Under the pieces are notes generated by a model. It made no database searches and was not told where the DNA came from. It was given only the letters and a program-made list of their open reading frames with translations. A stretch of 64,000 bases of DNA from Spinacia oleracea (lineage: Eukaryota; Streptophyta; Magnoliopsida; Caryophyllales; Amaranthaceae). Location of the stretch: the NCBI RefSeq assembly GCF_020520425.1, contig NC_079487.1, forward strand, positions 67,634,398 through 67,698,397, in the 5' to 3' direction. Of the stretch, positions 20,867 through 59,818 are shown piece by piece (positions within the stretch are counted from its first letter, which is position 1; each line of letters opens with the position of its first letter). Made by a program: the position numbers and the translations under genes.

Positions 20867-21483
20867 GTTAAGCATCTCTCTTTTAATTTGCCTCTATTTT
20901 TTTTCTGTTAGCTGAAAGATAAAATAGTGTTTGGAGATTGATGTACATTGTACTCCCTCCATTCCTTTTTGTTCTTCCCATTTCCTTTTTTAGCATTTCT
21001 TTTTGTTCTTCCCCTACTGAATCTTTACTATTTTTGGCCATAGTTTTTTTACCAATTTACCCTAAGATTCCCCACTATTTACAAAAAATACCCTAAGATT
21101 CTACCCTTTCCCACCCACTTTTACCCCACCCACCTTATTTAATTAATTAACCTAACCCTACCCCCCCTCCCTTTATTACCCGTCCCTATCTCACAATCCC
21201 TCCCTCACCTCTCATTCTGATTTCTCTCTCTCACCTCTTCGGATCTCTCTCTCTCTCTTATTTCACTCTCTCTCTCTCTTAAAATTCCTCCCCTGTTCTT
21301 GAGAAAACCCTAGGTTTTCCGCCTCTGATCTGGGTTTTCCTCTCCAAATCTCGCAAATCTGAAACGTTTTCGCAGAAAAACGTTCATAAAAATTACTCGG
21401 AATCATTTTCCGATCAGATCCCCTCTATTTTTGTCCCCTTTTTGGTCCCTAATCGTCGCTGATCTCTGTTTTTCTGGTACTTT

Positions 21484-22721
21484 ATGGGTTCTTCTTTGTC
21501 TAGAACTCGAGGTGATTCTGGGGTGGGAACTTCTGGTCAAAGAATCCCCGATTCCAACTGTGATTGGGGATCCAAGTGCAACTGTCCCAATAACGAGCAT
21601 TCCTACTCCGCCGAATATAAAAACAATCTGTATTTGGCCCAAAAAGAAAATACGAGTACTCGAAACTATTTGGAAGAATGGTTTCGGAAGAGGGAAGTGG
21701 AGCCAGGAGAGGAGGTTGAGTCAAAATATGACGATCGGAAACCCACTCCCTCAGATCTGCGTTTTTTCGGTGAAGGAGATTCCGATGAGGTATTAATTTT
21801 GATTTTTTGCGATTTATTTAGGGTTATTGATGTCGGTTTTATTAAAATGGTTTGATGAATGTTTGCATGTCTAAAAAAGTGGGATTTGATAAATGTTTGA
21901 TTTATTTGGAGTATTGTTCATTAAACTCGGATTATTTTCTGGAGTAGTTGCTCTGATTTCCCATTGCATGTGTTAAAAATGCAGATCTGGTATTTTTTCG
22001 AATTTTTTGGGAATTTTTTGGAGATTTGTTGGATTCATTCGGGCTTTTTATGTTATTCTTTGCTCTGTTTTCTCATTGCATGTTGTTAAAATTGAGTTCT
22101 GATTTTATTTTGTGCTCTGTTTTTTCATTGCATGTTGTTAAAATTGAGTTCTGATTTTATTTTGGGCTCTGTTTTTTCATTGCATGTTGTTAAAATTGAG
22201 TTCTGATTTTATTTGGAGCTATTTGGAAATTATTTGAAGAAAATCGGAATATTCATGTGTTTTGTTGATCTGTTTTCCCATTGCATGTGGTTAAAAATGG
22301 GATCTGGATGTATTTGGGATATTATTTCACATTTTTTGGGTAAAAATGGGATCTGGATGTATTCCGAAAATTAGTTGGATTTTAATGGAATTATTGTGTG
22401 ATTTGCTTTCATTTATCTCATTGCATGTGGTAACCATGGTGATCTGAAATTATTTGGAACTTTATTTTGAGTTGTTTGATTAAATCTGATTTTAATTCAT
22501 GGTCCCCTGTTATTTTATGATGGCACTAATCATGTTGTTTGTCCCCTATTGATTGCAAGGAACCAAGTGGGTCTGATTCATTTGATCTGGTGTATGTTGG
22601 AGAGTGTGAAAATGAGAATGGTGATGCTGTTGGGTCTCCAGGACAACTTTCATCTGGTTATCCCTCCTCAAAGAAAGGAGAAAAGGGAAAAAAATCGGCT
22701 TCAGCATCTGATGATGCTTAG
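21484..22721 (+). CDS. Possible two-exon accessory gene inside the mariner element (unknown)
   Basis: Exon 1 (21484-21789) starts MGSSLSRTRGDSG, and exon 2 (22560-22721) ends KKSASASDDA and stop. The donor GAG|GTATTAATT and the acceptor TGCAAG|GAA keep the frame, giving 155 residues. The product is hydrophilic, rich in Ser, Glu, Asp and Lys, with a CDWGSKCNC cysteine cluster in exon 1 and a lysine stretch near the C-terminus. It has no domain I recognise. It is convergent with the transposase gene, about 0.5 kb from the left TIR. A T-rich 770-nt intron contains 52-bp tandem repeats. It could be a captured host fragment or an unspliced chance frame; another frame over exon 1 is also open for 121 codons, which weakens the case. 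Confidence 0.4.
22062..22217 (+). repeat. 52-bp tandem repeat, three copies
   Basis: Three consecutive copies of a unit containing CATTGCATGTTGTTAAAATT and GAGTTCTGATTTTATTT, nearly identical, with partial further copies to 22300. It lies in the intron of the possible accessory gene. Confidence 0.85.
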
Positions 22722-23039
22722 ATAAGTCTGTCTCCTTTCTCCCTTTTTTCATTTTATTGAATGCTGGCTAGCTGTGGAGTCATAAGGTGGATGCCAACAA
22801 CTGTGATCTGTTGTTGGCCAGGGGTGTTGTTGTTTGGATGATGATGTTGTGATTAGTTGTATGGATGTTGATGTTAGATATTTTAAGTTATGATATTGAT
22901 ATTGATAATGATGATTGGATGATGGTGTTTCCATATGGTTATGAAATTTTGTGGAATGTTGTCTGTGTGATGAACATGATTTGATGGCTTAATGTCCCCT
23001 GTTTTATGGTATGTTTTGTGTATGATAAATATGATGCTT

Positions 23040-24675
23040 TGGTGAGTATGAGATTTGATCAGTATAACTATGTTTTGGATTAGTAAAGGCATGAAATGAA
23101 TATAATTTGGGGATAGGGTTTGAGTTATTTCAGTCCTCTCAGTGTGGCCTGGTGTTGAATGCTTAATGTCCAAGCATGTCCCTTTAGGATACAATAATGT
23201 CCCTTTATTTATTGTGATCGATGATGAGTCTTTTTTTTGCTGAGGAACAAGTCCAACTAACCACAAATGCTCGTGCTGCCATTAGTATCAGTAATGATAT
23301 TTCTCGGGCGCTAAGTGTTTGTGGTTTGGAGTTGTTTTAATGATGCTTGGGGACATTCTGAGATCAATAATATGAGGTTTGTGATCTTCAATGATGTGAT
23401 TGTTGATATTCTGAGATCTTTGTTTTGATAATTGTCCTTTAACTTCTTTTGTCGAACGGAGTGAATGTCATTTCACACAATGGAATGTGAATATCAATCA
23501 TTCCGTTCGGCAGAAGAATGTTAAAGATATGATAGTATTGAAACTACTTGATCAATGATGTGTGTCAATATGTCTGAGAAATGAAACCCTACATGTTAAT
23601 GATCTGTTTAATGCTTCATGTCCCATTAATCAGTGGAGGTCTGTGATGAGTCTTTCATTTGATGAGGTTCAAACCCTATGTTTTGATCAGTTCATGGTGA
23701 TCTGATGCATTGTTGATTGTTATTGTTATGCTTGATCTGTGATGAGTCTTTCATTTGCTGAGACTCAAACCCAATGTTCCAATAACACTTGTGTACCATT
23801 AGCATCATTGATGCTCTTCCGGAGCTAAGTGTTAGGGGATAGGGTTTGTGTCAATGATGCTTGGGGACATTCTGAGATCTTATGTCAGGTTAGACAGGAG
23901 AGGCAATTCATGTATTGCAAAACATGTATAATGTGTTTCTGATATTCAATGATGTTAGTGTTTCTGATCTGTGATGTATGTGTTGATAACCTGAGATATT
24001 TGATTCTAAACATGTCCCTCACCACCAATCACCAAAGGGAATACAGATCATGTCACATCATTGATTGATCTAGTATCCCCTTTGGTGAATTGGTGGTGAG
24101 GTTGTAAATCATTTAGAAACAAATCTGTCAATGATGTAAAACAACTAAACTGAGAGTCAATGATGTTGCCTTGTTCATTGCTTCCTTGTTTTTGCTGCTT
24201 TGTTCTTGTTTCCTTACCATTATATCTTTTGGCACATCGGCATCCAATGGGGAAGAATTTCCATCTGAAAATGATGTGATATGCATTCTTTCCATTTGGA
24301 TGCCGATGTGCTTAGAGATGTGATGTGAAGAAGTTTTTGTACTTATGCCTTGTGATCTGTGATGAGTCTTCATTTTATGAGTGTCAAAACCCTTTGTTTT
24401 TCAATCAAACTCATGCACCATTAGCATCCATGATGTTTTTCAGGAGCTAAGTTTAATTGGAAAGGGTTTGATTCAATGATTTTTGGGGACATTCTGAGAT
24501 ATTTATGAATCTTTGTTTATGTGAGGCATATTCCATGTGTTATCAATGATGAATTGATTGTTTTTGTCAAAATTACATCTTTTGACGCATCGGTTTCAAA
24601 ATGGGAATAATTTCCATCTGAAAATGATGTGATATTATTATTTATTTCCATTTTGAAGCCGATGTGTTTAGAGTT
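23040..24675. repeat. Array of foldback units with conserved flanks and variable arms
   Basis: Two kinds of hairpin alternate. Type A units (23215-23366, 23638-23720 truncated, 23733-23880, 24353-24500) share TGATGAGTCTT, CCATTAGCATC, GGAGCTAAGT and TTGGGGACATTCTGAGAT, yet their pairing arms differ. Type B foldbacks are 23437-23526, about 24004-24118, 24228-24318 and 24577-24672, with stems of about 30-36 bp. The last two share the loop TTTCCATCTGAAAATGATGT but have compensated arm changes (CATCGGCATCCAA with TTGGATGCCGATG, versus CATCGGTTTCAAA with TTTTGAAGCCGATG). There is no coding potential. This could be microRNA-like precursors, C/D-RNA-like units or cruciform-forming DNA. Confidence 0.7.
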
Positions 24676-24684
24676 GTGATATTG

Positions 24685-24800
24685 CAAATGCTGCCTTGTT
24701 CTTAAGAACCCAATGCTGCCTTGTTTATAGTGTTGCCAATGCTGCCTTACCTCTTGTGCCCTGTACTTTTTCTGCCAATGCTGCCTTGTTCTTGTTATGT
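24685..24800. repeat. Repeated AATGCTGCCTTG(TT) motif
   Basis: Four copies of AATGCTGCCTT within about 110 bp, with a related GTTGCCTTGTTCATTGC at 24165-24182. It lies just downstream of the transposase gene's stop, possibly in its 3' UTR. Confidence 0.7.
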
Positions 24801-25051
24801 ACTCATTTGATGTTTATTGCCTTGCCTTGATTACTCTACATTGATGTGAATAAGAATGATGGAAAAAAAACTTTACTAAACTTAAACATGAGATTCATTC
24901 ATTGATGCTTCCAAAAGATATGCTTACAAAATGTTTTGCCTACATGTTATGCTTGCATTTAAGCTTACAAAAGTGACAAATTGGTTTTACTTGTCAATTT
25001 AAAAACATGTCCCCAAAACACAAAAAGTTATCTAATTGTTTTCACCTTGCT

Positions 25052-26698
25052 TCACTGGTTTGCTTTCCATTCATCATAGAGTTGCATGCATTCATTAACT
25101 GCCCATATAGGTGCCTTGACTTGCTCTGGCAGTCTGCCTTCATCTTCTAAAATCTTCTTCTTGTTGTGTGGAAGTTGGTAATCATTGTTGCCTTTGTGTT
25201 TTAGAATCTCATTAGAAACAAACTGTAATGTCATCCACACATTAGACAATGTCTTAGGATGCAACTCATTAAAAGAATCATACACTGCTCCACTTAAGTC
25301 CTCCACAGTTTTAGGCATTTTCTTGTGCATAAGTGATTGTATTGACCTGAAAAATCCCAAGTCCAAGATGTTGCAATCTGGACTGTTTGCTGGCTGTTGA
25401 GTCAACACAAAAGTGAACCCATCTTGTTTGTAGTGTAGTTGCCATTCAGGATCATTTTGCAATATATGTGCCTTTGCATTATCTTGAATGATATAGATGA
25501 CCTTTTCCCCTTCATGTGGTGGCCACTTTGCCTTGATTGCTGGAATTAGCATGTTGATCATCATTGCCCTTGTTTCAATTTGATTCACAGACTTCACTGG
25601 CTTTGTTTCAATGGTCCCCTTTACTCTGTTTTTTGATGTCCTCTTGGCTGCAACTGCATTTGTGAATGGAAATATGCCTATTTTACCATCAAATTCACAA
25701 TTCCCATTTTCACCCCACCTTGGTCTGGCTACTGCTGCCATGAACATGAATTTTTGTATCTTGTTTCTTGAACTTGCACTTCTATGTGGATAGGGTTCAT
25801 TGTTTGCAAGATAAACTCTCTGGTTTTTTTGAGTCAAATAAAACCACTTCTCATCAATATGAATGAAGTCATACATGCTGTAATAAGTTGGTTCCTGTGG
25901 TATAGTGTAATCCATTATTAGTCTGAGTACCCACCTCATCCTTGCCATTTTGCATGCATCTGAAATGCCTGGATGCAAGGGACTTGAGTGTGGCTTAATA
26001 ATTTTCCTCTTGATGAGCCTCCATACTGTTGTTGGTCCCAAATTGAGCATTCTTGCAAGATCTACAATGCATGTTCTGTCCCCCATGGCTATTTGTGCAA
26101 TAGAGTCATATGTGACTTGAACCTTTTTCCTGCCACACTTGTGATACTTACTTTCCACCACATATGAATTCATTGCTGCCTTCTGCTTCTTTGCTTTGTC
26201 CCATATTGACCCTATGGTTTTTCTGTTGTAATCAAATTCTATGGCTGCATCCCTTATTGTCCCAAACAAAAGAGTTTCTGAATCTGGAATTTTTCTATTC
26301 AGCAGGTACACCAAAATTTCAAGCCTCAATTCATTATTTATTCTAGGAGTCCTAGGCTTATGATGATCTGTTCTGGGTGTTGCTGTTTGATGATGAATTG
26401 GTGATGCATTTTCTGATGGTGGTGGAAAGTTCAAATCAAAAAGAAATGGTACCTCTTGAAAGTTGGTAGTTTGCTGGTGCCCTTCCCCTTCTACTTCTGG
26501 TACTTGCTGTACATATTCAGTGCTGTTTGGTACATCTTCATTAAACCCAATGTCCCCAAAATCAGCAGCAGTATTTTGAGAAGCTTGTACCAAGTCAGCA
26601 GCATCATCACCTACCTCTGAGTCAGAATCGGAGTTAATGCCATCGCCTTCATCATCAGAAAATCCGAGGAAATCGTCATCCTCTTGATCTGAAGCCAT
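25052..26698 (-). CDS. Plant mariner-like transposase, DD39D
   Basis: The 548-residue single-exon product catalyses cut-and-paste transposition by binding the element's TIRs and cleaving DNA in the nucleus. Residues 1-65 are very acidic. Residues about 120-240 hold helix-turn-helix-type segments (TIRDAAIEFDYNRKTIGSIW; LARMLNLGPTTVWRLIKRK). The catalytic triad is complete: Asp282 in HIDEKWFYL, Asp406 in IIQDNAKAH and Asp446 in NILDLGFF, with 39 residues between the last two, the plant-MLE signature. No stop or frameshift occurs, and length is slightly above the usual 450-500. The start is the first ATG, in the context of the acidic MASDQEDDDF. It reads from near the right TIR (547-bp leader). 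It may also mobilise the Stowaway MITEs in this window, whose ends resemble its TIRs; that is inference. Confidence 0.92.
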   Translation of the reverse strand: MASDQEDDDFLGFSDDEGDGINSDSDSEVGDDAADLVQASQNTAADFGDIGFNEDVPNSTEYVQQVPEVEGEGHQQTTNFQEVPFLFDLNFPPPSENASPIHHQTATPRTDHHKPRTPRINNELRLEILVYLLNRKIPDSETLLFGTIRDAAIEFDYNRKTIGSIWDKAKKQKAAMNSYVVESKYHKCGRKKVQVTYDSIAQIAMGDRTCIVDLARMLNLGPTTVWRLIKRKIIKPHSSPLHPGISDACKMARMRWVLRLIMDYTIPQEPTYYSMYDFIHIDEKWFYLTQKNQRVYLANNEPYPHRSASSRNKIQKFMFMAAVARPRWGENGNCEFDGKIGIFPFTNAVAAKRTSKNRVKGTIETKPVKSVNQIETRAMMINMLIPAIKAKWPPHEGEKVIYIIQDNAKAHILQNDPEWQLHYKQDGFTFVLTQQPANSPDCNILDLGFFRSIQSLMHKKMPKTVEDLSGAVYDSFNELHPKTLSNVWMTLQFVSNEILKHKGNNDYQLPHNKKKILEDEGRLPEQVKAPIWAVNECMQLYDEWKANQ

Positions 26699-27247
26699 TA
26701 AGTCCCCTGTTTTTTTGCTATTTAATGCTGAATTGAGGAAGAAATTTTGGTGTTTTGCTTGTATTTATTGAACTTGGTAAAAGTCAGATTTTGGTCTTTT
26801 GTGGGGGGAAAGTGACCCTATTTATAAAGGGAATTCACTATGTCAACCCCTCAAAAATTTGGAGGGAAATTAAAAATCCCCTGTTTTTTTATTTGGGGGG
26901 AAAATTTGGAGGGAAAACTGAAATCAATTGTTTGGGCTTAATTTCCAGCCAAAAAAAACGTGAGTCATTGTATGATTAAATCTGATTGGTCCATGTAACA
27001 GCTGATGGGTCCCATACCCCATGTGACTGAATTTTTTTTCTGATTTCTTTCATTACTTTAATAAAATATCTACTTTTCTCCCTATTAATTAAATACTTTC
27101 TCTCTCTTTATTTTATTCAATTTCTTACACCCAATCATTATTCTTACACCCAATCATTACTCATATCCCAATACAAACCAAGATTCAGTTTTCTTAAACC
27201 ACACCCAACATTCTTTAGGGGAAGAACAAAAGGGAATGGAGGGAGTA

Positions 27248-28135
27248 CAATTTAAGGTCTAATTAAATTCGACAAGTGTTTGATTGATGACTTCGAAACA
27301 TGGGATCCGTATAGAATTTTATTAACCATGGCAATCGAAAGTGAAATTGGTAGAGTGTGTAGGGAATAGCTATGAGGCCATTTGCCCTGTTTAGTTATGT
27401 TGCTTGATTAGTTGTCTACCAAGTAATGCTTCATTACCATTGTGAGGTATGATTTATCGAATTTGATTGGGATGCTTAGGGAATGTTGTTGGTGTTGGCA
27501 GAAAATCAAGGTGTAATGAATAGTTGAAGTGTGAAAGAGTTAGCTGTTAGGTATTGCTTCCTTGTTTAAGGGTTGGGGTTGTCCTAGTACATAGCATATT
27601 TTTCTGTTACAGAGTGTTTTTTAGGAGCCTTTTGTATTAAATTATACTATTTCAATGTTGTTGATGTACTTAAAGTTTGCAGTAATTTTAATCATTTCTT
27701 ATGTTGTCTGTTGATTGTGCTGAATTTTTTTAGAGTATATCTTAGAAAAACATGCATATCATGCTTTACTTTTATGATTATTTCAATTATCCATTTTATG
27801 GATGGATTTTTCTTTTCTGGATTGGCAAACCCATGGTGACGCATGAGAAGGATCGGATATAGAAACGAGTAGCTAGACTTGTTACTAAACGACTCTTGAT
27901 CATGATATTAAGGTTGGTTTCTCACATTTGTGAGAATTTTTTTTATTGGAAATCTAGAAAAAATATTTTTCGTTTAATGAATATAACGAAATTAATGTAA
28001 ATCCTATTAGCTCAATTGGTAGAGCCATGTACAACTGCACAATGATATAGGTTCGAATCCTATATAGGCTATGAAACTTGTAATGTTTATGGGTTGCTAA
28101 ACTTTGCTAATAAAATAAAATTATATAAAAAGAAG
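27248..28135. other. Continuation of captured DNA inside the CACTA candidate
   Basis: Probably the intron of the captured SerRS fragment, split by the mariner insertion, since it directly follows the TA duplication. I see no coding exon. A tRNA-like stretch lies at 28006-28072. Confidence 0.4.
28006..28072 (+). tRNA. tRNA-like sequence, probably a pseudogene
   Basis: It shows a D-arm-like TAGCTCAATTGGTAGAGC and a perfect T-arm ATAGG-TTCGAAT-CCTAT, with acceptor halves CCTAT and ATAGG that pair. The anticodon stem is poor (CATGT against ACAATG with a bulge) and position 33 is not T, so no anticodon can be assigned. It is best read as a degraded tRNA gene. Confidence 0.4.
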
Positions 28136-48783: not shown

Positions 48784-51540
48784 TGTAACACCCCGACAAT
48801 TCTCTCTTTTCTAAAATAACCTTTTAATATAAAACGTAGAGAATTATCAAGGCATTATCGCCCGTGTGAAAACGTATCGGCTTATTCAGAATTTTGCAGC
48901 GGAAAACATAAAACTAACTTTTAGGTTCATAAATAATCTATTACATATTAGGTCCAAACCCATTTAACTGAATTAAGGAAATACGAATAGTACGACAAAT
49001 TTCAAATCCAAGTTAACAAATTAAATCACTTAATTAAACGAATAGAACTACAAGCTCTCTAATCCCGATCCCAATGATGCATCATCTTCAAACCTGTAGA
49101 TGGTCAACGCTTATTGATCCTTAAAGACTGCTCACCAAAGATGGGTCATCACAGGATCAATAAGGCATAGCCATGATCAACACACACAAACAAGCACGTA
49201 ATCAGCAAAGCTGAGTACTACATACTAAAACAACAACAATCCTAGCATGATACTATCAAACCAACAACCCTAACATGATACTAATAAGTATAAGTAAGGA
49301 CAGACAAAACATAATAAATTGACGATTATACTTGACTAGACTAAGCTAGGCTTAATAACCATAATATTATTTTAGTTGAAATAGACAATGGACCGAGTTG
49401 ACCATCCAGAAGTCTTCACTAAGGAAGACGAGGTACGGGCGCGACTCCGTAACCTCAGTGACCTGCGATATCGAGGAACGTTTAAATAAAAATAGGACAC
49501 GGTGATCAATCCGGTCCGAATTAAAGGCCATGGGCTACCACCATGAACCCCAACTCCTGTTTGTCCGTCACTTCAGACGTGCACAGTCTAAAGCTATTGC
49601 TATTCAGTTTCACTTTACATGATTTACAAATTGAGATTCCGTTATGACTCAACCATTACATAAGACAGACAATTCACATTTGTTCACAACTGTTTTTATC
49701 TTGGAATTAAGTAAGTGATCATAAAAGCATCAATCAAGACTCATTCCAACTTAACCAACCTTTCCTTTAACCATGAGCAACCCTGTATATGGGCATAAAG
49801 TTTCAACTTACTAAACAAGGTCCTCCGCCCTCATAAAGTAGTGAAAAGATAGAAAGGGAACAACAACCAATTGATCCAACCCAATCATATAGAATAATCT
49901 AGTGTTCCCAACCAACATGTTTGTATCAAACATCCATACTAACATGTTACAGTTCTTATAGTGCAAAATAAGTTCAATAAGTTTGTCCAACAGTATTAAA
50001 CATGCACATTCAATATAACCCAGTTCGTCCATAATATCAACATCACCAAGTTCAACAATAGTATCAACATAACCAAGTTCAACAACAAGATTCAACATGG
50101 TTTCAACCATTAGCACACATTCCAAGCACACAGGTATGTACGTACCTTGTGTAAACAAAATGCGAGACCACTTTAAGAATTCAAAAGTCGCCTACGGAGA
50201 ATTCTCCACCTAACAACAACCAATATAGACTCATATCAATTCATATTGAATTTTCAGCAACATTAGGGAGCTTCAAACCCCTCTTAAACATAATTAGAAC
50301 ATTTTCCAATATCGAAACTTGAATATTTGGTTCCCTAGCATCATAATTATTATATTAATTATTGAAATTCGTTGAAAACTCTTCAAAGCATCATACTTTA
50401 AATTTCCAGCAATATAACTACTTTCAAACTGCTCCAAAACATAATTAACATGTTTGAAATTATAAAAACAATAACTTTAATAACTTATAATCATCCTACC
50501 ATGGTTTCAAAACTACAAAAACCTTAAAATTCATGCTTTAAATAATTAAAAATCATTATTTCAAGGCAATTACATAATTTGAAAATTAAATTATTATTCA
50601 AGCATAATATGAAATCTGGAAATCCTAACTAACTCATAAAAAACGTATAATTTAAATTCGAGAACATAATTTAAATTATTAAAACTTAATTAACTTCACT
50701 AATTGGTTTAGGGTTAAGGAAATACCCAAAAGAGAGAGAATAACAGGAGTGATGCCGGCAGTAGGGCGGCGCGGCTGGTGGTGGTTGTCGGCGCTGAGCG
50801 ACGCGGATGATTCTCTAGGTGGTCGCGCAGTGGTGGTTGCACGTGCAGCGATGTGAGAGGGGCAGAAGGAATGAGGGAGGAGAACACAAAACAGACACCG
50901 ACCAGCAAGGGGGAAACGACGTTAAGGTCACAGAAGGCCGACGGTTGCGCGGAACACCGGTGGTCGGTGGTGGCTGGCCTGGTTGTGCGCAAAACAGAGC
51001 ACAAGTGAGGGAAGAAAACAAAGAACAACGAGAGATGAAAGGAAAAACGAAAGAGAAGAGAAGGGGAGAGAGAGTTATCGGACGGGGAAGCGGTGGTCCG
51101 GTGTGGTCGGTTGACCGGCGGCGGCAAGGGTGAAGCTATTCTGCAGGATTACGTGAAGGAGCAATGAGGGTTTGCAAATCTTATTTTCACGTGAAGTTGA
51201 ATGAGAGGAGAGGAGAGTTGGTTCACGTGCATATTGAAATTAGGATGGGGGTTATTTGTTTTGGGCTTTATCAAATTGGGCTAGGATTAGAATTGAACTT
51301 TTACGTTTGAATCCAAAATCGATTAGGCTTATTTTCCAAATTCCAATGTGTTTTCGTAATTCAAATTCTTTTCAACATAAAATTCAAAAATTATTTTTGA
51401 TTTCGTAAATCATTAAAAACATTAAAAATGTAATAAATAAATATACGTTATTTATATATTTATTTCTAAAATTCATAAATTAGTTCTTAAATATACGTTA
51501 AAATATATAAATAAAATGTATAAAATTACGGGGGATTACA
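48784..51540 (-). repeat. 3' LTR of the Gypsy element
   Basis: In element orientation it begins TGTAATCCCCCGTAATTTTA and ends GGGGTGTTACA. The reading frames inside (49811-50158, 50714-51133) recur exactly 8000 bp away in the other LTR and are not genes. Confidence 0.95.
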
Positions 51541-51949
51541 ATCTACCCCTCTTAAAAGAAGTTTCGTCCCGAAACTTGACACGAAAATTCACATATCTTT
51601 CCAAACTTTTCAACTTATTCTTATTGTACAAGTACTTTGTGCCACTCTTGTTCACTCTTTTGCCAACTAAGAGTTACTTGTAATATTCACGAACACATTT
51701 TCTTATGCGAAGAATCTATTTACTTGCATCAACATGTATAAGTTGCTAAAAATGAGCATAAAATGCATAAAATTGCTATAAAAATAGGTAAAAGCGCGAA
51801 TTTCTATCGCATTCTACCCCTCTTAAAGAAAACGAGTTACGCCCTCGTAACTCATCTCAGGGAATAAGCTTGGATATTTCTACTTCAACGAATCATGTCC
51901 CCAATGCTATATTTCCACTAAAATCGTAGCAAGTGGGATTTCTACACTT

Positions 51950-56783: not shown

Positions 56784-59540
56784 TGTAACACCCCGACAAT
56801 TCTCTCTTTTCTAAAATAACCTTTTAATATAAAACGTAGAGAATTATCAAGGCATTATCGCCCGTGTGAAAACGTATCGGCTTATTCAGAATTTTGCAGC
56901 GGAAAACATAAAACTAACTTTTAGGTTCATAAATAATCTATTACATATTAGGTCCAAACCCATTTAACTGAATTAAGGAAATACGAATAGTACGACAAAT
57001 TTCAAATCCAAGTTAACAAATTAAATCACTTAATTAAACGAATAGAACTACAAGCTCTCTAATCCCGATCCCAATGATGCATCATCTTCAAACCTGTAGA
57101 TGGTCAACGCTTATTGATCCTTAAAGACTGCTCACCAAAGATGGGTCATCACAGGATCAATAAGGCATAGCCATGATCAACACACACAAACAAGCACGTA
57201 ATCAGCAAAGCTGAGTACTACATACTAAAACAACAACAATCCTAGCATGATACTATCAAACCAACAACCCTAACATGATACTAATAAGTATAAGTAAGGA
57301 CAGACAAAACATAATAAATTGACGATTATACTTGACTAGACTAAGCTAGGCTTAATAACCATAATATTATTTTAGTTGAAATAGACAATGGACCGAGTTG
57401 ACCATCCAGAAGTCTTCACTAAGGAAGACGAGGTACGGGCGCGACTCCGTAACCTCAGTGACCTGCGATATCGAGGAACGTTTAAATAAAAATAGGACAC
57501 GGTGATCAATCCGGTCCGAATTAAAGGCCATGGGCTACCACCATGAACCCCAACTCCTGTTTGTCCGTCACTTCAGACGTGCACAGTCTAAAGCTATTGC
57601 TATTCAGTTTCACTTTACATGATTTACAAATTGAGATTCCGTTATGACTCAACCATTACATAAGACAGACAATTCACATTTGTTCACAACTGTTTTTATC
57701 TTGGAATTAAGTAAGTGATCATAAAAGCATCAATCAAGACTCATTCCAACTTAACCAACCTTTCCTTTAACCATGAGCAACCCTGTATATGGGCATAAAG
57801 TTTCAACTTACTAAACAAGGTCCTCCGCCCTCATAAAGTAGTGAAAAGATAGAAAGGGAACAACAACCAATTGATCCAACCCAATCATATAGAATAATCT
57901 AGTGTTCCCAACCAACATGTTTGTATCAAACATCCATACTAACATGTTACAGTTCTTATAGTGCAAAATAAGTTCAATAAGTTTGTCCAACAGTATTAAA
58001 CATGCACATTCAATATAACCCAGTTCGTCCATAATATCAACATCACCAAGTTCAACAATAGTATCAACATAACCAAGTTCAACAACAAGATTCAACATGG
58101 TTTCAACCATTAGCACACATTCCAAGCACACGGGTATGTACGTACCTTGTGTAAACAAAATGCGAGACCACTTTAAGAATTCAAAAGTCGCCTACGGAGA
58201 ATTCTCCACCTAACAACAACCAATATAGACTCATATCAATTCATATTGAATTTTCAGCAACATTAGGGAGCTTCAAACCCCTCTTAAACATAATTAGAAC
58301 ATTTTCCAATATCGAAACTTGAATATTTGGTTCCCTAGCATCATAATTATTATATTAATTATTGAAATTCGTTGAAAACTCTTCAAAGCATCATACTTTA
58401 AATTTCCAGCAATATAACTACTTTCAAACTGCTCCAAAACATAATTAACATGTTTGAAATTATAAAAACAATAACTTTAATAACTTATAATCATCCTACC
58501 ATGGTTTCAAAACTACAAAAACCTTAAAATTCATGCTTTAAATAATTAAAAATCATTATTTCAAGGCAATTACATAATTTGAAAATTAAATTATTATTCA
58601 AGCATAATATGAAATCTGGAAATCCTAACTAACTCATAAAAAACGTATAATTTAAATTCGAGAACATAATTTAAATTATTAAAACTTAATTAACTTCACT
58701 AATTGGTTTAGGGTTAAGGAAATACCCAAAAGAGAGAGAATAACAGGAGTGATGCCGGCAGTAGGGCGGCGCGGCTGGTGGTGGTTGTCGGCGCTGAGCG
58801 ACGCGGATGATTCTCTAGGTGGTCGCGCAGTGGTGGTTGCACGTGCAGCGATGTGAGAGGGGCAGAAGGAATGAGGGAGGAGAACACAAAACAGACACCG
58901 ACCAGCAAGGGGGAAACGACGTTAAGGTCACAGAAGGCCGACGGTTGCGCGGAACACCGGTGGTCGGTGGTGGCTGGCCTGGTTGTGCGCAAAACAGAGC
59001 ACAAGTGAGGGAAGAAAACAAAGAACAACGAGAGATGAAAGGAAAAACGAAAGAGAAGAGAAGGGGAGAGAGAGTTATCGGACGGGGAAGCGGTGGTCCG
59101 GTGTGGTCGGTTGACCGGCGGCGGCAAGGGTGAAGCTATTCTGCAGGATTACGTGAAGGAGCAATGAGGGTTTGCAAATCTTATTTTCACGTGAAGTTGA
59201 ATGAGAGGAGAGGAGAGTTGGTTCACGTGCATATTGAAATTAGGATGGGGGTTATTTGTTTTGGGCTTTATCAAATTGGGCTAGGATTAGAATTGAACTT
59301 TTACGTTTGAATCCAAAATCGATTAGGCTTATTTTCCAAATTCCAATGTGTTTTCGTAATTCAAATTCTTTTCAACATAAAATTCAAAAATTATTTTTGA
59401 TTTCGTAAATCATTAAAAACATTAAAAATGTAATAAATAAATATACGTTATTTATATATTTATTTCTAAAATTCATAAATTAGTTCTTAAATATACGTTA
59501 AAATATATAAATAAAATGTATAAAATTACGGGGGATTACA
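56784..59540 (-). repeat. 5' LTR of the Gypsy element
   Basis: Same sequence as 48784-51540, offset by exactly 8000 bp. The LTR is unusually long for a Gypsy element and its GC-rich stretch (58740-59130) may be the promoter/leader region; no TATA box was assigned. Confidence 0.95.
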
Positions 59541-59818
59541 CTATACTCCTCTTTTTGTTTCTAAGTTCTTTCCAATTGTTTCGCAAAGTTTTTTGATGCA
59601 TATTTAGAACATTTATATCACCCGGTATTAGTTTAGATTAATTTATGTGGTTTGGGTCACTGTACGTTATTTTAAGGTGCGTTCTATTCAACTTATCAGA
59701 TATAAATTTATTTGAGCTTATTTGCATTTATTAGAAGTTATCTGACTTATCTGAATTTATTGAAACTCAATAAAACTTATTTGAATTTATTGTACTTATC
59801 AAACCTGATTGTGCCTTA

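Follow-up and report, generated by a model that had tools for sequence, protein, structure and literature searches.

To our knowledge, few transposons carry non-coding RNA genes of their own. The trans-species miRNA superfamilies of Cuscuta reportedly combine paralogues and compensatory changes between arms, as does the spinach array described here, and are said to have known targets; we know of no description of them as transposon cargo. Hairpin RNAs borne by transposons are already known. In the available portion of PMC3459959, miR820 of rice is described as a proven miRNA gene located in CACTA transposons, with the host gene OsDRM2 as its target and an action against host silencing. The accessible text of PMC4660826 describes plant genes, snoR-miR775 and sno-miR779, in which a snoRNA and miRNA-like hairpins come from one precursor, and also mentions miRNA precursors with snoRNA-like features. 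Box C/D RNAs, as defined in the part of PMC5122169 at hand, have RUGAUGA and CUGA boxes and more variable internal C'/D' boxes, and the antisense elements of C/D snoRNAs are 10-15 nt long and lie upstream of D or D'.

The window, that is the whole 64-kb stretch of spinach DNA analysed, contains a transposon bordered by TA dinucleotides at 20951-20952 and 27246-27247, in which the foldbacks of a non-coding array occupy the 2.1 kb separating the 3' ends of two convergent genes (Table 1). The element has traits of plant mariner-like elements, including a TA target site, Stowaway-like TIRs and a DDD transposase (triad read by eye). The sequence-only reading had assigned the array to a mariner element, and this assignment agreed with the DD39D-type triad, also read by eye, and with the labels of relatives, some of which are named mariner or Tc1-like transposase and many just 'uncharacterized protein'; Pfam gave an HTH match alone, below threshold. 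The closest named relative of the transposase is from Spinacia oleracea (74% identity), with one record of 98% ranking ahead of it. Gene 1 has five relatives in all; two of them are named, and both come from Spinacia; a relative with 70% identity (P0124) is likewise in Spinacia. Its product starts with MGSSxS, which we take to be a myristoylation-like start, and has a Cys-bearing core, CDWGSKCxCP. No U6-type promoter was found within the element with the fragments tried, and no Site II was found upstream of gene 1. Telo-box words occur at 21305 and at four places inside the array. The sequence TTGGGGACATT of the A units recurs in the transposase coding sequence (window 26540-26562 and 23762-23875), and the 5' arm of A2 is partly antisense to the transposase codons holding TTGGGGACATT. 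Outside the element, a tRNA gene at 28001-28071 (+; Rfam 42.2 bits) lies about 750 nt beyond its end, and a direct repeat of 2,770 bp (48784-51553 and 56784-59553), 99.86% identical and offset by exactly 8,000 bases, is a recent duplication or an assembly artefact.

Table 1. Positions in the window of the element, its genes and the units of the array
Feature	Positions	Strand	Description
Mariner-like element, 6,293 bp	20953..27245	.	TIRs of about 28 nt; from the sequence
Gene 1, 155 aa	21484..22721	+	Two exons, 21484-21789 and 22560-22721, as judged by eye
Non-coding array region	22722..24850	+	Between 3' ends of convergent gene 1 and transposase
Unit A1	23216..23365 (foldback 23216-23372)	+	GATC stem, C 23221, D' 23240, hairpin, C' 23340, D 23358, GATC
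Unit H2	23391..23577 (hairpin 23418-23548)	+	C 23391, D' 23411, C' 23555, D 23574
A', partial A unit	23637..23715	+	5' half only (GTGATGAGTCTTTCATTTGATGA)
Unit A2	23735..23879 (foldback 23734-23885)	+	C 23739, D' 23758, hairpin, C' 23854, D 23872, GATC ends
Unit H4	23971..24153 (hairpin 24005-24112)	+	C 23971, D' 23991, C' 24131, D 24150
Unit B1 hairpin	24213..24330	+	Loop with CTGA-AA-ATGATGT
Unit A3	24355..24500 (foldback 24354-24508)	+	C 24359 and D 24494 intact; C'/D' degenerate
Unit B2 hairpin	24566..24684	+	Loop as in B1
Transposase ORF, mariner type, 548 aa	25052..26698	-	ORF, triad, relatives

Seven foldbacks, spanning 23216-24684, were found where at least seven imperfect hairpins had been proposed. 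At least three types can be told apart: A, with three complete units plus a half unit; B, with two; and the single hairpins H2 and H4. When each unit was compared with 200 dinucleotide shuffles, folding was extreme in four of them (z of -9.5 for H2, -9.1 for H4, -10.8 for B1 and -9.6 for B2) and moderate in two (-4.3 for A1 and -3.0 for A2, the latter out-folded by the best of its 200 shuffles). The fold of A3 was not beyond chance (z -1.5). The two arm pairs quoted in the sequence-only reading are both present, in B1 and B2, and its statement that flanks and loops are conserved held: the loops of B1 and B2 have an identical run of 24 nt in common, and the A units have box and spacer blocks in common.

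The hairpins are framed by box C/D-like motifs. RTGATGN followed by CTGA after 10-13 nt was matched eight times on the + strand of the array, always with a spacing of 11-13 nt, against an expectation of 0.24 and a maximum of 2 in 300 shuffles, for a pattern that was spotted first and tested afterwards. Since A1 and A2 are paralogues and the 5' modules of H2 and H4, which both contain GTTGATA, perhaps also share descent, the eight matches represent fewer than eight independent events. No further module was present on either strand elsewhere in the 64-kb window, the minus strand of the array included. Each of four hairpins, A1, H2, A2 and H4, has one of the eight modules on its left and one on its right, and the resulting layout, C-D'-hairpin-C'-D, is that of box C/D RNAs. 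Box C is the full RTGATGA in A1-A3 and one letter off, RTGATGT, in H2 and H4; A3 has kept C and D and lost C' and D' to degeneration, and outer modules are missing from B1 and B2, whose box-like motif is inside the loop. Shorter words are less confined to one strand: CAATGATG occurred 7 times on the + strand of the array (0.21 expected) and twice on its minus strand (0.20 expected), and CTGAGAT occurred five times on the + strand (0.30 expected). A further candidate module at 23949, with an 8-nt spacer, was rejected, its CTGA being lost in 23 of 40 aligned copies of the element.

Within a unit, the left spacer pairs with the right one (P of 0.001 for H2, 0.009 for A1, 0.0005 for A3, 0.056 for A2 and 0.09 for H4), and a terminal stem paired by eye is GATC/GATC in A1 and A2, bulged in H4, and short and offset in H2. 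The spacer length of 11-13 nt matches that of the antisense elements of box C/D snoRNAs. As these spacers pair internally, however, a unit resembles a closed hairpin, at the base of which two C/D pairs face each other, and not an open guide RNA.

The proposal that the two arms change together was evaluated by laying the predicted structure of one unit onto a sister unit aligned by sequence only, and by comparing the pairs kept with a null in which an equal number of substitutions per arm was placed at random, with sites independent and all substitutions alike. From B1 to B2, 44 of 50 pairs were kept (null mean 35.2, P 1.5e-4) and five of seven double changes still paired; in the opposite direction the values were 46 of 52 (P 1e-5) and seven of nine. 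Pair retention was also above chance for A1 with A2 and A1 with A3 in both directions (P 3.8e-4 or less), and double changes that still paired numbered 7/8, 8/12, 7/9 and 8/8 in these four directed tests. Between A2 and A3 the values were P 0.13 with 2/5 double changes pairing, and P 0.04 with 2/4 from A3 to A2. At a third locus (C1:11231216-11232250), where three A-unit matches were found, unit T1 folds and has retained both D' and C', only its C and D having been demanded by the search pattern. Retention between A1 and T1 was slightly above chance (P 0.02 and 0.002), with just 1/4 and 1/3 double changes pairing. Concerted change of the arms was thus clear in six of the ten directed comparisons and weak or absent in the other four. 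G-U intermediates occur in the stems at 24232/24311 and 24599/24653.

In order to follow the array within its own family, the array was used as a query against the spinach genome, giving 291 candidate places, of which the best 40 were scored; all were full length with 98-100% identity. The 40 aligned copies, the window element and 39 others, were selected for their similarity to the array. Of the others, 36 align to both element ends (L009, L017 and L028 do not). All eight modules were kept in 36 of the 40 copies and seven in the remaining 4. The reading frame was intact in 29/40 copies for the transposase and in 35/40 for gene 1, indicating a young family. Mean pairwise difference was 0.0074 in the array, compared with 0.035 at four-fold sites and 1.1% at second codon positions of the transposase and 0.025 in the gene-1 intron, a contrast that is inflated, and an array value that is biased low, because the copies were picked by array likeness. 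Upstream of the transposase, the copies differ by 11% at 26700-27200; 26650-27100 varies by 6-17% per 150 nt compared with 0.1-4.5% in the rest of the element, as if this stretch had been swapped between subfamilies.

Stem variants among the 40 copies were few. Those present in a single copy kept pairing in 20 cases and broke it in 19, and those shared by copies kept it in 4 and broke it in 1, three at the base of B1 being excluded. These counts are suggestive and not significant for kept pairing. The idea that the structure and not the arm sequence is kept is supported between units; within the family, the variants are too few for proof.

A sample free of this selection bias was obtained from 15 own-family copies on C1-C2 that were found by the transposase alone (73-75% identity to P0003, the transposase of the sister family). 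A lack of the foldbacks in other copies had been named as counting against the sequence-only reading, and this was not what was found: the 21-nt B loop was present exactly, twice, in 14 of the 15 copies, and once in C2:77298216. Some copies of the family carry an additional, fourth A unit, as in C1:102302629-102304462, where 558 nt separate it from the adjacent one; C1:124583701, 129817332 and 133033170 and C2:74105910 are similar.

Judged by its motifs, the array is not confined to this family. In a sister family with a transposase about 75% identical to that of the window element, 12 copies on C1 and C2 with at least 96% identity to P0003, two of them partial, were analyzed. The B loop was exact twice in 11 of the 12 and once in C2:63912598 (control pattern 0). 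An A unit with exact ends, one per copy, was present in 7 of the 9 copies within the listed range (control 0); C1:109122509 and C1:134418454 had none. In the sister family 213-218 nt separate the two B loops, compared with about 353 nt in the window family, and the difference of about 135 nt corresponds to one A unit, A3, between B1 and B2. Together with the fourth A units, this indicates that units are apparently gained and lost as cassettes. The 27-nt union of the B1 and B2 arms matched the transposase-proximal B unit of the sister family with 0 mismatches in 7/12 copies and the distal B unit in 0/12. The arms are thus not wholly free, and fast arm drift is not supported for the sister family. 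P0003 had no relative among the viral contigs searched.

Taken from sequence, these results lead us to consider it somewhat probable that the transposon encodes, in the array, a structured non-coding RNA in which the hairpin bases are kink-turn-like and the double-stranded arms retain their pairing; our confidence that it is a functional RNA as such is higher than for this whole statement. The C-D modules on one strand, the kept loops and pairing, and the fixed place behind gene 1 argue for RNA. The array would be read on the + strand, as gene 1 is, perhaps as a long 3' part of the gene 1 transcript. Each A or H unit would fold as one closed hairpin. At its base, box C would lie opposite D and D' opposite C', forming predicted kink-turn sites for a protein of the 15.5K/SNU13 type; the C/D pairs would be joined by a short helix that the two spacers form, and the long double-stranded stem would stand above. 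The boxes and loops may do specific work, such as protein binding, stability or nuclear retention, and the letters of the arms may drift as long as pairing is kept, because the arms would be needed as a double strand. The stems might in addition be processed by a Dicer, a plausible step that would be compatible with a structured RNA. In its furthest form, which we put forward tentatively and regard as rather unlikely, the mariner family would encode the C/D-framed hairpin array as an RNP scaffold that presents arms to a Dicer, and duplication, insertion and re-arming of units would give rise to ever new small RNAs, or to decoys that counter host silencing.

A doubtful alternative, and the main one, is that the hairpins are MIRNA or hairpin-siRNA loci whose stems are cut by DCL and whose arms act in trans, for example on host silencing genes. 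Stem size and the near-perfect pairing of H2, H4, B1 and B2, which have the near-complete duplex of about 21 nt that is a trait of plant MIRNAs, fit plant precursors, and the match of the B1/B2 union to the proximal B arm in 7/12 sister copies is what kept arms would give; miR820, CACTA-borne and acting on OsDRM2, is a precedent in the part of PMC3459959 cited above. Rfam matches in the array at a loose cut-off were to MIR families only, all sub-threshold, whereas at the curated cut-off nothing matched in the array and the tRNA was the sole match in the whole window. In plant MIRNA genes the arms are usually conserved and the loop is free. Between B1 and B2, the loop is constant and the arms vary, which is the reverse, and the box C/D-like frame of the hairpins also speaks against an ordinary MIRNA family. 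When 12-mers from the arms of H2, H4, B1, B2 and A1 were searched in paper texts, nine stretches written with U matched 10 papers and three written with T matched 5, none of them recognizable by title and abstract start as a plant small-RNA paper. The words 'transposon' and 'mariner' had 0 occurrences in the available main text of the spinach miRNA paper PMC9029227. When the arms were compared with the mRNAs of the element itself, the best complementarity score was 4.5 for the transposase (A2 5' arm; 5 to 8 for 12 shuffled targets) and 6.0 for gene 1 (inside the shuffle range of 5 to 8.5); with gene 1 within and the transposase just past the controls, nothing was rested on it.

It is improbable that the units are true box C/D snoRNAs, enlarged in their D'-C' linkers, whose spacers guide methylation. 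The boxes, their spacing and the partial terminal stems agree with the definition of C/D RNAs and with antisense elements of 10-15 nt upstream of D or D' in the consulted part of PMC5122169. However, pairing of the spacers within a unit leaves little free guide, and the length from C to D is about 140-190 nt. No snoRNA family of Rfam matched in the array at or below cut-off; two sub-threshold C/D matches were both inside the transposase gene.

Copying within hairpins, by template switching or gene conversion, might instead have produced arm complementarity without any function. Such copying would yield double changes, and exchange between units seems to happen, since in one copy a variant of the H2 module bears letters of the preH4 module. 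The boxes, the loops that are exact across families and the G-U intermediates would be left unexplained, and we judge this origin quite improbable. Foldbacks can also form in DNA, but a cruciform or transposase binding array, i.e. the structured DNA needed for transposition that had been offered as a second possibility, is disfavoured to the point of being very hard to credit, as the C-D modules are confined to a single strand and occur nowhere else in the element.

Among the matches listed, no paper paired snoRNA and mariner in plants, and no C/D-framed hairpin array in an autonomous mariner element was found in print. An array that is conserved beyond a single family, keeps its pairing and has a snoRNA-like frame would offer a tractable case of structured RNA use by plant DNA transposons. 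With miR820, as presented in the part of PMC3459959 cited, it has in common a hairpin RNA gene borne by a DNA transposon; miR820 is a proven miRNA with the target OsDRM2, whereas the spinach locus, known from its sequence alone, is an array of unlike hairpins in a C/D-like frame. With plant box C/D snoRNAs it has in common, going by the available text of PMC5122169, the RUGAUGA and CUGA boxes and the more variable C' and D'; unlike them, the spinach units have a long D'-C' hairpin, mutually pairing spacers and no Rfam match. The snoR-miR775 and sno-miR779 genes, in the sections of PMC4660826 consulted, are cellular genes that give separate snoRNA and miRNA products, whereas the spinach hairpins are enclosed by the D' and C' boxes of each unit, are repeated, and are carried by a transposon.
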